64,000 bases of DNA from Opitutia bacterium (GTDB lineage: Bacteria > Verrucomicrobiota > Verrucomicrobiia > Opitutales > Opitutaceae), in the NCBI GenBank assembly GCA_016190985.1, contig JACPPI010000001.1:1-64000 (forward strand), in the 5' to 3' direction. A program made the position numbers and the translations under genes. Shown here one piece after another: positions 4,792-22,059 of the stretch. The stretch's first letter is position 1. The number at the start of each line of letters is the position of its first letter. The notes under the pieces were generated by a model that was not told where the DNA came from, ran no database searches, and saw only the letters and a program-made list of their open reading frames with translations.

Positions 4792-4852
4792 TGTGGGAGC
4801 GAGCTTGCTCGCGACTCAGGACATGACTGTCGCGAGCAAGCTCGCTCCCACA
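4792..4852. repeat. REP-like pair: perfect 23-bp inverted repeat TGTGGGAGCGAGCTTGCTCGCGA
   Basis: Arms 4792-4814 and 4830-4852 are exact reverse complements, each containing GCGAGC-TT-GCTCGC. Confidence 0.9.
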
Positions 4853-5460: not shown

Positions 5461-6024
5461 ATGAAGGAACGGCGCACCGCGCGGAAGACCGCCAGCCTCG
5501 CCGGCCAGCTCCTGCTCGCGCACCCGGTGCTGCGCGATCCGAACTTCCGGCGCGCCGTCGTGCTGCTCTCGGCGCACAACGCCGAAGGCGCCATGGGGGT
5601 CGTGCTGAACCGGCCGCTCGACAAGCAGCTTGGCGAATTGAACTCCGAGTTCGCGCTGGGCGCGCTGGCCGGCGTGCCGGTCTATGCGGGCGGGCCGGTG
5701 GAGCCGCAGCAACTGGTCCTCGTTTCGTGGGAATGGCTGGACGCGGACCGCGCCTTCCAACTGCACTTCGGCATCGAGCCGGACAAGGCGGCGGGGCTGG
5801 TCGGTTCGCCCGGGGTGACGCTGCGCGCCTTCCTCGGCTACGCCGGCTGGAGCAAGGGCCAGCTCGAAAACGAGATGAAGCACGACACCTGGGTGACGGC
5901 CCCGGTCGACGGCGACCTGCTGGGCCGGGTCGACGGGGTCGGGCTCTGGCGCCAAATACTGGGCTCAATCTCCCCTGACCTGAAGCTGCTGGCTGACGAG
6001 CCGGACGATCCGGCCGTAAACTAG
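5461..6024 (+). CDS. YqgE/AlgH family protein
   Basis: SLAGQLLLAHPVLRDPNFRRAVVLLSAHNAEGAMGVVLNRPL, GGPVEP, FLGYAGWSKGQLENE. Confidence 0.93.
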   Translation: MKERRTARKTASLAGQLLLAHPVLRDPNFRRAVVLLSAHNAEGAMGVVLNRPLDKQLGELNSEFALGALAGVPVYAGGPVEPQQLVLVSWEWLDADRAFQLHFGIEPDKAAGLVGSPGVTLRAFLGYAGWSKGQLENEMKHDTWVTAPVDGDLLGRVDGVGLWRQILGSISPDLKLLADEPDDPAVN

Positions 6025-6047
6025 CCATACCAGCGGGTTAAATGACT

Positions 6048-6121
6048 GGAGGCGGGGCCATCAGCCCCGCCGGGCAGGTGTTTCGGGAGCAAGAACACGC
6101 GGGGCTGATGGCCCCGCCTCC
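6048..6121. repeat. REP doublet (GGAGGCGGGGCCATCAGCCCCGC and inverted copy)
   Basis: Copies at 6048-6070 and 6099-6121, same family as the REPs flanking the RAYT at 166-633. Confidence 0.9.
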
Positions 6122-6179
6122 TCGTCCAAATCTTTTCCTTTGACAGGGGTGGCGGCGGCCATCTTCTTTCTTCGTTTTT

Positions 6180-6305
6180 ATGAAAGTCGTCTCCTCCATC
6201 AAATCCGCCAAGATGCGTCACCCGGCCTGCCAGGTGGTCCGTCGCAAGGGCAAGATCTACGTCATCAACAAAGTCGAGCCGCGCTACAAGGCGCGCCAAG
6301 GCTGA
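6180..6305 (+). CDS. rpmJ: 50S ribosomal protein L36
   Basis: [41 protein letters not shown]; 41 aa, below ORF-track cutoff. Confidence 0.95.
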
Positions 6306-6324
6306 TTTAACCACCTCATTTACC

Positions 6325-6579
6325 GTGAAGACCGAAGGCCATCCCGTCCTCAACCACGTCTGTTTCCTCGACATCGGAACCGGCAAGAAATTCCTGACCA
6401 AGTCCACGATGAAGTCCGCCCGCACCGAGAAGATCGACGGGAAGGACTACTTCGTCATCGTGCGCGACGTGACGATGGATTCGCATCCCGCCTACACCGG
6501 CGAGAAGCGCCTCGTCGACACCGCCGGCCGCGTGGAGAAGTTCACCACGAAGTTCAAGCGCGCGACCAAGACCAAATAA
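6325..6579 (+). CDS. rpmE: 50S ribosomal protein L31 type B
   Basis: HPVLNHVCFLDIGTGKKFLTKST, HPAYTGEKRLVDTAGRVEKFTTKF; GTG start. Confidence 0.92.
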   Translation: MKTEGHPVLNHVCFLDIGTGKKFLTKSTMKSARTEKIDGKDYFVIVRDVTMDSHPAYTGEKRLVDTAGRVEKFTTKFKRATKTK

Positions 6580-6603
6580 ACCGGGAGTAGCCGATTCTTC
6601 GAA

Positions 6604-6628
6604 GCCCTCCCGTTGCGGAGGGCTTTTT
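6604..6628 (+). terminator. Rho-independent terminator downstream of rpmE
   Basis: gccctcc-cgttgc-ggagggc followed by ttttt. Confidence 0.85.
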
Positions 6629-6734
6629 GCTTTCCGGCATGGCCGGAAAACAATCTCGCCGAAGCTCGGAGAGCGAAGGCGGATAAAGTGATTTACCTTT
6701 GGCCGCTTCCTTCGTGTGCTTCGTGCACTGCGTG

Positions 6735-7394
6735 GTGAAAAAGAAACTCAAGCTGATCATCTTCGACTGCGACTCGACGCTCAGTGCCATTGAAGGCATC
6801 GACGAGCTGGCGCGCGCGCGCGGGCCGCAGGTCTTCGCCGAGGTCGAGGCCATGACCCGCGACGCCATGGAAGGGAAGATTCCCGTGGAGGAGGTCTTTG
6901 CCCGCCGGTTGGACATCATCCGTCCCTCCCGGACGAATGTCGCGGCAGTCGGTCGGCTCTACGTCGAGCAGGTGGAACCCACGGTGCAGGCCACAATCAA
7001 GCAGCTCAAGGCCGCGGGCTGGACGCCGGTGATCCTCAGCGGCGGTTTTCGCCAGGCCATCGAGCCGCTGGCGGCGCACCTTGGTATCGCGCGCATCGAG
7101 GCGGTGGACCTGCACTTTGACGCGAAGGGCGAGTTCGTCGGGTTCGACGAGAAATTCCCCACGACCCGCTCCGGCGGCAAACCGGTGGTCGTCATCGCAC
7201 TCAAGCAAGAGCTGAAGCCGGCGCGCACCGTGATGGTCGGTGACGGCGTCAGCGACCTTGAGACCAAGCCGGTGGTCGACCTGTTCGTCGGGTTTGGCCG
7301 CTATACGCCGCGCGAAAGAGTGAGGACGGGTGCAGCGGTGTTCATCAACAACCTCGCTGATCTGCCGGCAGCGTTGACGAAGCTCGGCACCTGA
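6735..7394 (+). CDS. serB: HAD-IB family phosphatase, phosphoserine phosphatase-like
   Basis: LIIFDCDSTLSAIEGIDELA, VILSGGFRQAIEPLA, MVGDGVSDLETKP. Confidence 0.85.
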   Translation: MKKKLKLIIFDCDSTLSAIEGIDELARARGPQVFAEVEAMTRDAMEGKIPVEEVFARRLDIIRPSRTNVAAVGRLYVEQVEPTVQATIKQLKAAGWTPVILSGGFRQAIEPLAAHLGIARIEAVDLHFDAKGEFVGFDEKFPTTRSGGKPVVVIALKQELKPARTVMVGDGVSDLETKPVVDLFVGFGRYTPRERVRTGAAVFINNLADLPAALTKLGT

Positions 7395-12863: not shown

Positions 12864-13006
12864 GGAGGCGGGGTGCCCTCACCCCGCAAGACACAGTCAG
12901 CGCAATCTCAATCTGAGCGGGGTGAAGGCGCCCGCTGATGTCAACTAATAGTTTACATCAGCCGGCAGCGCAATTTGGAAATGGCGGGGTGAGGGCACCC
13001 CGCCTC
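12864..13006. repeat. Composite palindromic element: REP-like pair (GGAGGCGGGGTGCCCTCACCCCGC) enclosing a second palindrome
   Basis: Outer hairpins at 12864-12887 and 12984-13006 (inverted); inner palindrome at 12934-12962. Confidence 0.85.
12934..12962. repeat. GCTGATGTCAACTAATAGTTTACATCAGC palindrome (one arm mismatch)
   Basis: Near-perfect 29-bp palindrome, same family as 18151-18189. Confidence 0.85.
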
Positions 13007-18121: not shown

Positions 18122-18150
18122 AAGGAGACCTCGCCAGTTGCATCTCTGCT

Positions 18151-18189
18151 CACCGGCTGATGTCAACTATTAGTTGACATCAGCCGGTG
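18151..18189. repeat. 39-bp palindrome CACCGGCTGATGTCAACTATTAGTTGACATCAGCCGGTG
   Basis: Perfect palindrome except for the single central base. Confidence 0.92.
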
Positions 18190-18254
18190 AGCCGCAAGCT
18201 CGCGCGCAACGCGGCCTGCAGGCACGCCACCGACAAAGGCCGGGTGGCGGCGTG

Positions 18255-20559: not shown

Positions 20560-21894
20560 TCAGCTCTTGCGGAGAAGAGCCACGTAGAATCCGTCAGTGT
20601 TATGTGTGCCCGGCAACAGCGTGGTGCCGAGGCCGTCGAAGGTGCCGCCGTGGTTTTTGGCCGGAGGCTCGGCTTTGAAATGAGAGTGGGCTGCGAGGAA
20701 CGCGGCAACGACGTCGTGGTTCTCGTGATGACTGAGGGAGCAGGTGGCGTAGATGAGGAGTCCGCCGGGTTTCACGCGCGGGGCGTTGACGGTGAGGATT
20801 TCAAGCTGGGTTTTGGCGAAGGCGGCGATGGTCTCGGGCTGCACATACCACTTGAGGTGGGGCTGGCGGCGCCAGGTGCCGGAGCCGGAGCAGGGGGCGT
20901 CCACAAGCACGCCGTCGTAGACTGCCGCGCCAATGTTCGTATTACGAACATTGCCCGTAGGGCTCTGCGCGGCGGACATTGGGTGAATGTTCGTAATACG
21001 AACATTGTCCAGGCGCGCGCGCTGCGCGCGGTCGCGGAGTTCCTCGAGGATTTCGGGACGGATGTCGGCGGCGTCGACGTGGCCCGAAGAGCCGAGCAGA
21101 CGGGCGAGCTGGAGCGTTTTTCCCCCGGCGCCGGCGCAGGCGTCGAGCCAGCGGCCGGTGAGCGGCAGCGGGGCATGGGCGAGGAGCATCTGCGAGCCGA
21201 GGTCCTGGATCTCGACAAAGCCGCGGCGGTAGGCGTCGGATGTGGCGACCTCGGCGTTGGGCGGCAGGCACACGGCGTCGGGGAAATCGGCGGGAATGGT
21301 GAAGGCCCAGTTTCTCGCGCGGAATTCGTCGAGGACGAGGTTGCGGTCGTTGCATTGGATACGGACCCAGACGTTGGCGCGGCTGTTGAGGGCGTCGAGA
21401 TGGGGGGAGGCGAAGACGGCGGGGCAGTGGGAGCGGAACCACTCCGGCAGCAAAGCTGCCGGGGAAAAGCTGAAAGCTGCGCCGTTGCTGGCTGCTGCCA
21501 GCCCGGTGTTTGTCCCAGCCGCCGCCGGGCAAAAAAACCGAGAAATTAGAAATGCAGACTTGGCGGCGAGGGAATCGGGGACTGCCGGCCAGTCGCCGCA
21601 GTGGGCGGCGCGGTAGGAAGAGGTGGGCTTCGACTCCGGCGCGAGCCAGGCAGTGATCTTCGCCGCGAGAGCCGCATCTGCATCAAGCAACCCGTCAATC
21701 CAAGGGAGGAAGCGCAGGTAGGTGTAGACGAGTTCGCGGTAGAGCTTGCGGTCGCGGGAGCCGAGGGCGCGGTGGCGGGCGAAGATCTCCTTGATGCGGC
21801 GGGGCAGGGAGCTGTCGCGGCGGACGTGCGGGCGCAGCTCGGCCAGGAACGCGAGGAACAGGCGCTGCTGGTTGGCGGCGATGTTGGGGTTCAT
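20560..21894 (-). CDS. rsmB: RsmB-like 16S rRNA m5C methyltransferase carrying an in-frame palindromic insertion
   Basis: ACAGAGGKTLQLARLL, LVDAPCSGSGTWRR, YATCSLSHHENHDVV; NusB-like N-terminus. Confidence 0.9.
   Translation of the reverse strand: MNPNIAANQQRLFLAFLAELRPHVRRDSSLPRRIKEIFARHRALGSRDRKLYRELVYTYLRFLPWIDGLLDADAALAAKITAWLAPESKPTSSYRAAHCGDWPAVPDSLAAKSAFLISRFFCPAAAGTNTGLAAASNGAAFSFSPAALLPEWFRSHCPAVFASPHLDALNSRANVWVRIQCNDRNLVLDEFRARNWAFTIPADFPDAVCLPPNAEVATSDAYRRGFVEIQDLGSQMLLAHAPLPLTGRWLDACAGAGGKTLQLARLLGSSGHVDAADIRPEILEELRDRAQRARLDNVRITNIHPMSAAQSPTGNVRNTNIGAAVYDGVLVDAPCSGSGTWRRQPHLKWYVQPETIAAFAKTQLEILTVNAPRVKPGGLLIYATCSLSHHENHDVVAAFLAAHSHFKAEPPAKNHGGTFDGLGTTLLPGTHNTDGFYVALLRKS
20932..21006. 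repeat. Palindromic insertion inside rsmB: two inverted copies of AATGTTCGTATTACGAACATT
   Basis: 21-bp odd palindromes at 20932-20952 and 20986-21006 that are reverse complements of each other. Confidence 0.9.
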
Positions 21895-21945
21895 GGAAAA
21901 GGATTGGCCACGGATGAGCACGGATGGAGAAGCAGAGAAGACAGG

Positions 21946-22059
21946 TTGGCCACAAAAAGTCACAATAATCGTTTGCCGGATGATGCTCCCAAGGCGCCAT
22001 AGGCGCGCGGAGGATTTTCGGCAGCGAGGAAGAGTCTTTTTGTGACTCTTCGTGGCCAA
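21946..22059. repeat. Inverted repeat TTGGCCACAAAAAGTCACAA ... TTGTGACTCTTCGTGGCCAA between lptD and rsmB
   Basis: 20-bp arms with 18 matching positions. Confidence 0.7.

Follow-up and report, generated by a model that had tools for sequence, protein, structure and literature searches.

A dispersed palindrome within rsmB of an Opitutaceae genome and its pairing with genes for small helix–turn–helix proteins

Results

Two perfect palindromes lie in frame within rsmB

The DNA analysed here is a single 64-kb stretch (the window). On its minus strand, at 20560–22059, lies an open reading frame for an RsmB-like 16S rRNA methyltransferase (PF01189, RsmB/F, E 1.6e-41). Counted from a TTG, the frame encodes 499 aa. 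Homologues are present in 116 of 120 Opitutaceae genomes, and as their alignment begins near residue 54, translation probably starts at an internal ATG, that of MNPNIAANQQ. Two exact and perfect 21-bp palindromes, whose starts are 54 bp apart, are contained in this frame. In coding order, the first (AATGTTCGTAATACGAACATT, 20986–21006, minus strand) encodes NVRITNI and is followed by a 33-bp spacer (20953–20985, minus strand) that encodes HPMSAAQSPTG and is unrelated to the spacers of other doublets, and then by the second palindrome (AATGTTCGTATTACGAACATT, 20932–20952, minus strand), which encodes NVRNTNI, the product around the doublet reading ARLDNVRITNI-HPMSAAQSPTG-NVRNTNIGAAVYDGVLVDAPCSGSG. 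A preliminary description of this DNA had given the two palindromes, the peptides and the undisturbed reading frame correctly, but had taken a segment of about 75 bp (25 codons) to be inserted. In an alignment of 26 Opitutaceae RsmB proteins, the window protein is 18 codons longer than its close relatives. The first palindrome covers native codons with no gap in the alignment, so the net insertion is 54 bp, made up of the second palindrome and the spacer. As a single strand, the doublet folds far more stably than shuffled sequences (z = -7.2).

In a genome of the same genus (G323), the rsmB codons that correspond to the first palindrome are occupied by one exact copy, and there is no insertion; the doublet itself is lineage-specific. 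A near-match is found at these codons in G255 (AAT GTC CGG ATT ACG AAC AGC), with two synonymous differences and a different last codon. We considered whether the residues are native to RsmB, the palindrome having arisen by chance or in an ancestral loop common to all relatives. Native RsmB proteins do have N-[IV]-x-I where the first copy lies, but the relatives do not have the 18 additional codons, no matches are expected by chance and 13 copies are found in the genome, which leaves this origin a negligible probability. Within the window, a search allowing up to three mismatches found no copies beyond the rsmB pair, and shuffled sequences gave none.

Palindromes of another family, termed CAAC, also occur in the window: GCTGATGTCAACTAATAGTTTACATCAGC, with one mismatch, lies between two genes at 12934–12962, and a perfect 45-bp palindrome containing TGTCAACTATTAGTTGACA is intergenic at 18148–18192. 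The former is nested, within 12865–13006, in the spacer of an unrelated and perfect 23-bp inverted repeat (GAGGCGGGGTGCCCTCACCCCGC; arms at 12865–12887 and 12984–13006). A similar GC-rich inverted repeat is located at 6048–6121, and a perfect 24-bp inverted repeat at 4792–4852 (TGTGGGAGCGAGCTTGCTCGCGAC) is reminiscent of Pseudomonas-type REP sequences. At 41679–45161 on the minus strand, an AlaS frame of 1160 aa contains an in-frame Y1_Tnp domain (IS200-like, RAYT-type) at about residues 526–611, flanked by GSARVPRA-type repeat peptides, the transposase gene reading through in frame inside the essential synthetase. The preliminary description had joined alaS and rsmB in one trend towards in-frame repeats; other copies of the rsmB palindrome do lie in frame, but the alaS insert, with its Y1 domain, is a different element.

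The palindrome is dispersed in Opitutaceae genomes

Copies of the palindrome were counted by pattern searches. The assembly that contains the window (2.95 Mb, 34 contigs) contains the 21-bp sequence at least 13 times when up to three mismatches are allowed, so that the palindrome is not confined to rsmB, and others lie in frame in other genes. The exact 19-mer was found in 98 stretches across 85,488 species genomes; among the 80 of these 98 matches that were listed, almost every one comes from a record of Opitutaceae or of other Verrucomicrobia. The exact 17-mer of this family, hereafter TTCG, is present in 27 of 200 Opitutaceae genomes.

The flanks of 189 exact sites extend the palindrome, with the consensus CC-AATGTTCGTAWTACGAACATT-GG. 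Seven or more further complementary bases beyond the 21-bp core were observed at 6.9% of these sites, compared with 0.17% when flanks were permuted, and the extra arms differ from copy to copy. Correction of quasi-palindromes by template switching would yield complementary arms of this kind and may be their source. A LexA-type site was rejected as an identity for the palindrome: nothing of the kind emerged from a literature search, and TGTTC-N7-GAACA is spaced differently from the LexA site of Verrucomicrobia.

Sites replace native codons or extend the coding sequence

Codon alignments with 18–20 congeners revealed that in the MutY, NnrD and M16 protease genes of the genome studied here the palindrome replaces 21 native base pairs without an insertion or deletion, and the same holds for a glycosidase-like gene of G323. 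A 21-for-21 replacement changes about 12 bases of a gene whose protein is conserved, and would be hard to reach by single mutations. The NnrD palindrome occupies the same codons in our genome, G365 and G349 and is decayed in G369; that of MutY does so in our genome, G362 and G349, with variants in G323 and G370. Overall, congeners carry the palindrome at shared codons patchily. In IspG the palindrome is situated within a loop of variable length. In congeners (loci L314, L317, L321 and L326) this loop carries a different in-frame repeat peptide of the NVERSxLNVERS type, so that the loop is an acceptor of repeats on more than one occasion.

In G323, the genome with the best sampling, 24 of 48 sites fall inside coding sequence as called by a crude GC3-based method, mostly in the NVRxTNI frame, and other in-frame copies likewise mostly read N-V-R-(N/I)-T-N-I. 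One of the three frames of the palindrome is interrupted by a stop codon on either one strand or its complement. Since about half of the G323 copies lie outside coding sequence, the in-frame bias most simply reflects selection against copies that close the frame or encode residues that the protein does not tolerate.

Doublets are regularly spaced

The spacing of 47 doublets peaks at 52–54 bp. Below 80 bp, the spacing is phased at 10.5 bp (Rayleigh p 0.0004, n = 35), with much of the signal coming from the 52–54-bp class. The coding doublets examined in G323 (in genes for an SNF2 helicase, a TPR protein and two others) without exception have a 54-bp spacing, like that of the window rsmB. A common spacer motif, suspected from a hammerhead-like CTGA..GAAA, was abandoned when an EM motif search performed no better on the spacers than on shuffles, and Rfam returned one sub-threshold chance match in the spacers and nothing else. 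Neither did we find an extended outer stem of the REPIN kind that would pair the two flanks of a doublet: complementarity between outer flanks was not above permutation; only the two flanks of each individual palindrome exceeded it. At two loci (L246 and L257), HTH genes are bracketed by doublets of 70–72 bp that are 97–99% identical, spacer included. The spacers of dispersed doublets, by contrast, are unrelated; these two are apparently recent units.

The palindromes bracket a gene for a small HTH protein

At several loci in independent genomes, palindromes about 395 bp apart enclose a conserved small gene. It encodes a protein of about 119 aa in which a conserved segment, TLRP..T.LWN, precedes a Cro/C1-like helix–turn–helix (HTH). 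The TTCG-type gene of our genome (C10:71516-71851) is situated between palindromes at 71473, 71852 and 71923, and a palindrome near the start codon was observed among HTH genes. The protein gave no match above cutoff in Pfam or NCBIfam, PHROG matches were weak, and faint profile similarity was seen to YdaS, HTH_3 and Cro. An AlphaFold2 model built from seven sequences is all-helical and of mediocre confidence (pLDDT 71), and Foldseek retrieved only weak matches, to CylR2, SinR and lambda repressor. No catalytic domain was recognised. In profile searches in which the top candidates per genome were scored, the family was present in 102 of 200 Opitutaceae genomes and absent from the sampled genomes of the phylum outside Opitutaceae. 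Phage, plasmid and IMG/VR collections contained no relatives, and a phage, plasmid or viral origin was rejected on this basis. Our genome has eight paralogues, each flanked by different repeats. About half of the Opitutaceae genomes examined harbour a pairing of protein and palindrome that seems undescribed, in an HTH family without a name; a literature search for palindromes with an HTH partner in Opitutaceae or Verrucomicrobia returned nothing relevant, most subscription journals lying outside its reach.

Two of the eight paralogues (C5:241208-241531 and C5:276290-276586) immediately follow integron integrase genes (TIGR02249, above cutoff), and at the first of these (L430, the second being L431) the 3' end of the integrase, coding for GVxSPLD, recurs as a short copy beyond the HTH unit. 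At a further locus of our genome (L432, around position 5945–6750 of the locus; contig C21), copies of a 93-bp direct repeat with 87% identity lie on either side of the HTH unit. The repeat derives from the 3' portion of an aminotransferase-like gene upstream and looks like a long target duplication. The integrase-linked pair would suit an arrangement in which the palindromes are integrase recombination sites and the HTH gene with its short spacers a cassette, as would the integrase fragments near HTH genes in three other genomes and the unrelated doublet spacers. However, the palindromes are near-perfect, TGTTCGTAWTACGAACA and other half-sites do not, by inspection, contain the attC motifs RYYYAAC/GTTRRRY, and an integrase is adjacent at only about five HTH loci, none of them linked to the TTCG family. 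We therefore regard an integron-like origin as very improbable.

HTH specificity and half-site change together

A nearby W-centred palindrome was found at 78 of the 96 HTH genes with full flanks. In 54 of the 96 an identical half-site occurs on both sides of the gene, as against 0 of 5149 control windows. Every HTH lineage is flanked on both sides by a palindrome of its own, centred in nearly all cases on TA-W-TA, with half-sites such as TGTCACGTA, TGTCACTTA, TGTAACGTA and TGTCAACTA at individual genes. Residues of the recognition helix predict the half-site: HRAR goes with TGTTCGTA in 9/9 cases, DRQx with GTCAACTA and PPQR with TTCAC. The best mutual information between a residue and a base is 22.9 s.d. 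above shuffles, a figure inflated by the shared ancestry of the HTH genes. The CAAC palindrome, present in 13 genomes and with 12 exact 19-mer copies in our own, mostly follows HTHs of the DRQ/HRQ type, and the family to which the window palindrome at 12934–12962 belongs is cognate to our paralogue at C15:33524-33811.

When TTCG-type HTHs were assigned by profile score and recognition helix, TTCG sites were present in all ten genomes that have such a gene and in 17 of the 190 others (Fisher p = 3.8e-10). The ten genomes contain between 3 and 48 dispersed sites each, single or in doublets. Because related HTH genes within a clade enter both the covariation and the co-occurrence counts, these observations are not entirely independent of one another. 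In the complete genome G126, which has 14 exact TTCG sites, no TTCG-type HTH was detected, which implies a recent loss of the partner or persistence of the sites in its absence. Sites with no detected TTCG-type HTH also occur in G354, G321, G290 and G204, some of which are incomplete, and intact sites do so in G362 and G365 (82–86% complete). Two sites look decayed where no TTCG-type HTH was found, that in rsmB of G255 and that in NnrD of G369, the changes lying at synonymous or other positions.

Genomes G323 and G370 have in common the TPR-protein doublet, in which the spacer has diverged and the palindromes are kept. In G370, where the recognition helix is HKAR instead of HRAR, the sites of this doublet move to AAGTTCGTA, as do the palindromes round the HTH gene, and the copies are largely AAAGTTCGTAATACGAACTTT, the form that flanks that gene. 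At this one shared doublet, dispersed sites have shifted in step with HTH specificity.

With regard to location, the TTCG sites of G323 are spread over both contigs. Most of the listed sites of the 5.9-Mb genome G228 beyond the HTH gene's own flank lie within ~360 kb of that gene, a clustering that is suggestive only, the 360-kb window having been picked after the fact. No chromosomal position common to the sites could be shown.

These data also bear on whether the palindromes are non-autonomous elements moved by a Y1/HUH transposase, in the manner of REP/REPIN-RAYT systems, with the HTH gene as passenger or regulator. Hairpin-forming doublets resemble REPINs (PMC3116915), GTAG REPs are abundant in O. 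terrae (PMC3733652), and a Y1 domain is carried in frame by the window alaS. On the other hand, a REP is defined by a GTAG or CGTC tetranucleotide at one end of its palindrome (PMC3733652), and neither tag is present here. No relative of the alaS Y1 domain was found in the fetched loci, those with HTH genes and palindromes included (E<=1e-6, a search that could miss other RAYT groups). Moreover, transposition alone would not lead one to expect replacements of equal length, and the palindromes vary together with the HTH protein. Mobilisation by such a transposase is accordingly unlikely.

Discussion

We propose, with a probability of roughly 60%, that the rsmB palindrome is the recognition sequence of the lambda-repressor-like HTH protein of about 120 aa encoded at C10:71516-71851, and that it belongs to a dispersed and largely selfish family of sites. 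The protein very probably recognises the palindrome, binding being an inference. A dimer of the protein would bind each palindrome of 21–25 bp, and the sites close to the start of the HTH gene would probably repress it. The same sites may have built up elsewhere, at 3 to 48 locations in each genome, singly or as doublets on which two dimers could be accommodated on one face of the helix. Within genes, a site would be retained only if it left the frame open and if the protein could accommodate N-V-R-N/I-T-N-I, and sites could enter coding sequence either by replacing 21 native base pairs or by adding a spacer and a second site (+54 bp in rsmB). Dispersal might proceed through host replication or recombination, by template switching at hairpins or by recombination between palindromes, perhaps aided by the bound protein; such recombination could convert a single site, as in G323 rsmB, into the doublet of the window rsmB. 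The protein has no catalytic domain that we could find, so that a spreading mechanism is missing from this explanation.

Alternatively, the sites may benefit the host as chromosomal or regulatory sites, with the HTH a domesticated nucleoid or regulatory protein acting in the manner of MatP/matS or Noc and with sites arising by substitution. Replacement of native codons without indels, retention of palindromes at the same codons in several species, helical phasing of the doublets and the shift of sites with HTH specificity would all be expected here. The distribution is nevertheless patchy (any HTH in 102/200 genomes, TTCG sites in 27/200), up to eight paralogues with different palindromes coexist in one genome, and site number ranges from 3 to 48 with no demonstrable common position. 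We consider host benefit the less probable reading, with perhaps one chance in four. Patchiness, the many paralogues and variable copy number lean towards selfish spread, whereas long retention at shared codons leans towards function; old-looking sites at the same codons between species fit selection for host function as well as they fit selfish spread.

If the proposal of a largely selfish site family is right, short palindromes can spread and persist with a DNA-binding protein as their only dedicated partner. To our knowledge, no described REP, RPE or MITE system relies on a DNA-binding protein alone. It is conceivable, and we put this forward tentatively, that these pairs represent a new class of recognition-site family, in which an HTH protein without transposase or nuclease accompanies a palindrome that multiplies, replaces or extends the coding sequence of essential genes and changes in concert with the specificity of the protein, as many as eight pairs being possible in one genome. 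It would also appear that selection at the nucleotide level for a protein-binding site has rewritten residues of MutY, NnrD, M16 protease and RsmB. The dozens of HTH/half-site pairs, including differing paralogues within one cell, would then constitute a natural protein–DNA specificity set.

In layout, the Opitutaceae sites are like REP/REPIN-RAYT systems. Short palindromes are dispersed singly and as inverted doublets with short spacers (47 doublets here; PMC3116915, PMC3733652), a dedicated partner gene is bracketed by its own palindrome, the sequence is lineage-specific, and doublets can fold into long hairpins. The two defining features, transposase and GTAG/CGTC tag, are nonetheless absent. 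The bracketed gene here encodes an HTH protein of about 120 aa with no recognised catalytic domain and not a Y1 (HUH) transposase, the palindrome is untagged, sites often replace coding sequence without an indel, and copies number 3–48, not hundreds.

The Rickettsia palindromic elements, named as an analogue in the preliminary description, are similar in being dispersed palindromic repeats that lie in frame in genes that are likely to be functional, represented here by rsmB (+54 bp) and by the TPR-protein and SNF2 doublets of G323. The analogy does not extend to the many single copies that replace 21 bp without an indel or to the dedicated HTH partner; the Opitutaceae sites have a 21-bp core where the Rickettsia elements are longer, and no homology is claimed. 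The sites bound by MatP (matS), Noc and SlmA offer another comparison, being palindromic sites of one DNA-binding protein that are dispersed on the chromosome, also inside genes, as are those described here; the HTH family differs in being patchy, in being bracketed by its own sites and in having paralogues with separate specificities. Finally, the stoperators of phage L5 are dispersed operators at which a small HTH repressor has many sites, and in this respect they are alike, whereas the Opitutaceae sites lie on a bacterial chromosome and their HTH protein has no relative in the phage, plasmid and IMG/VR collections.
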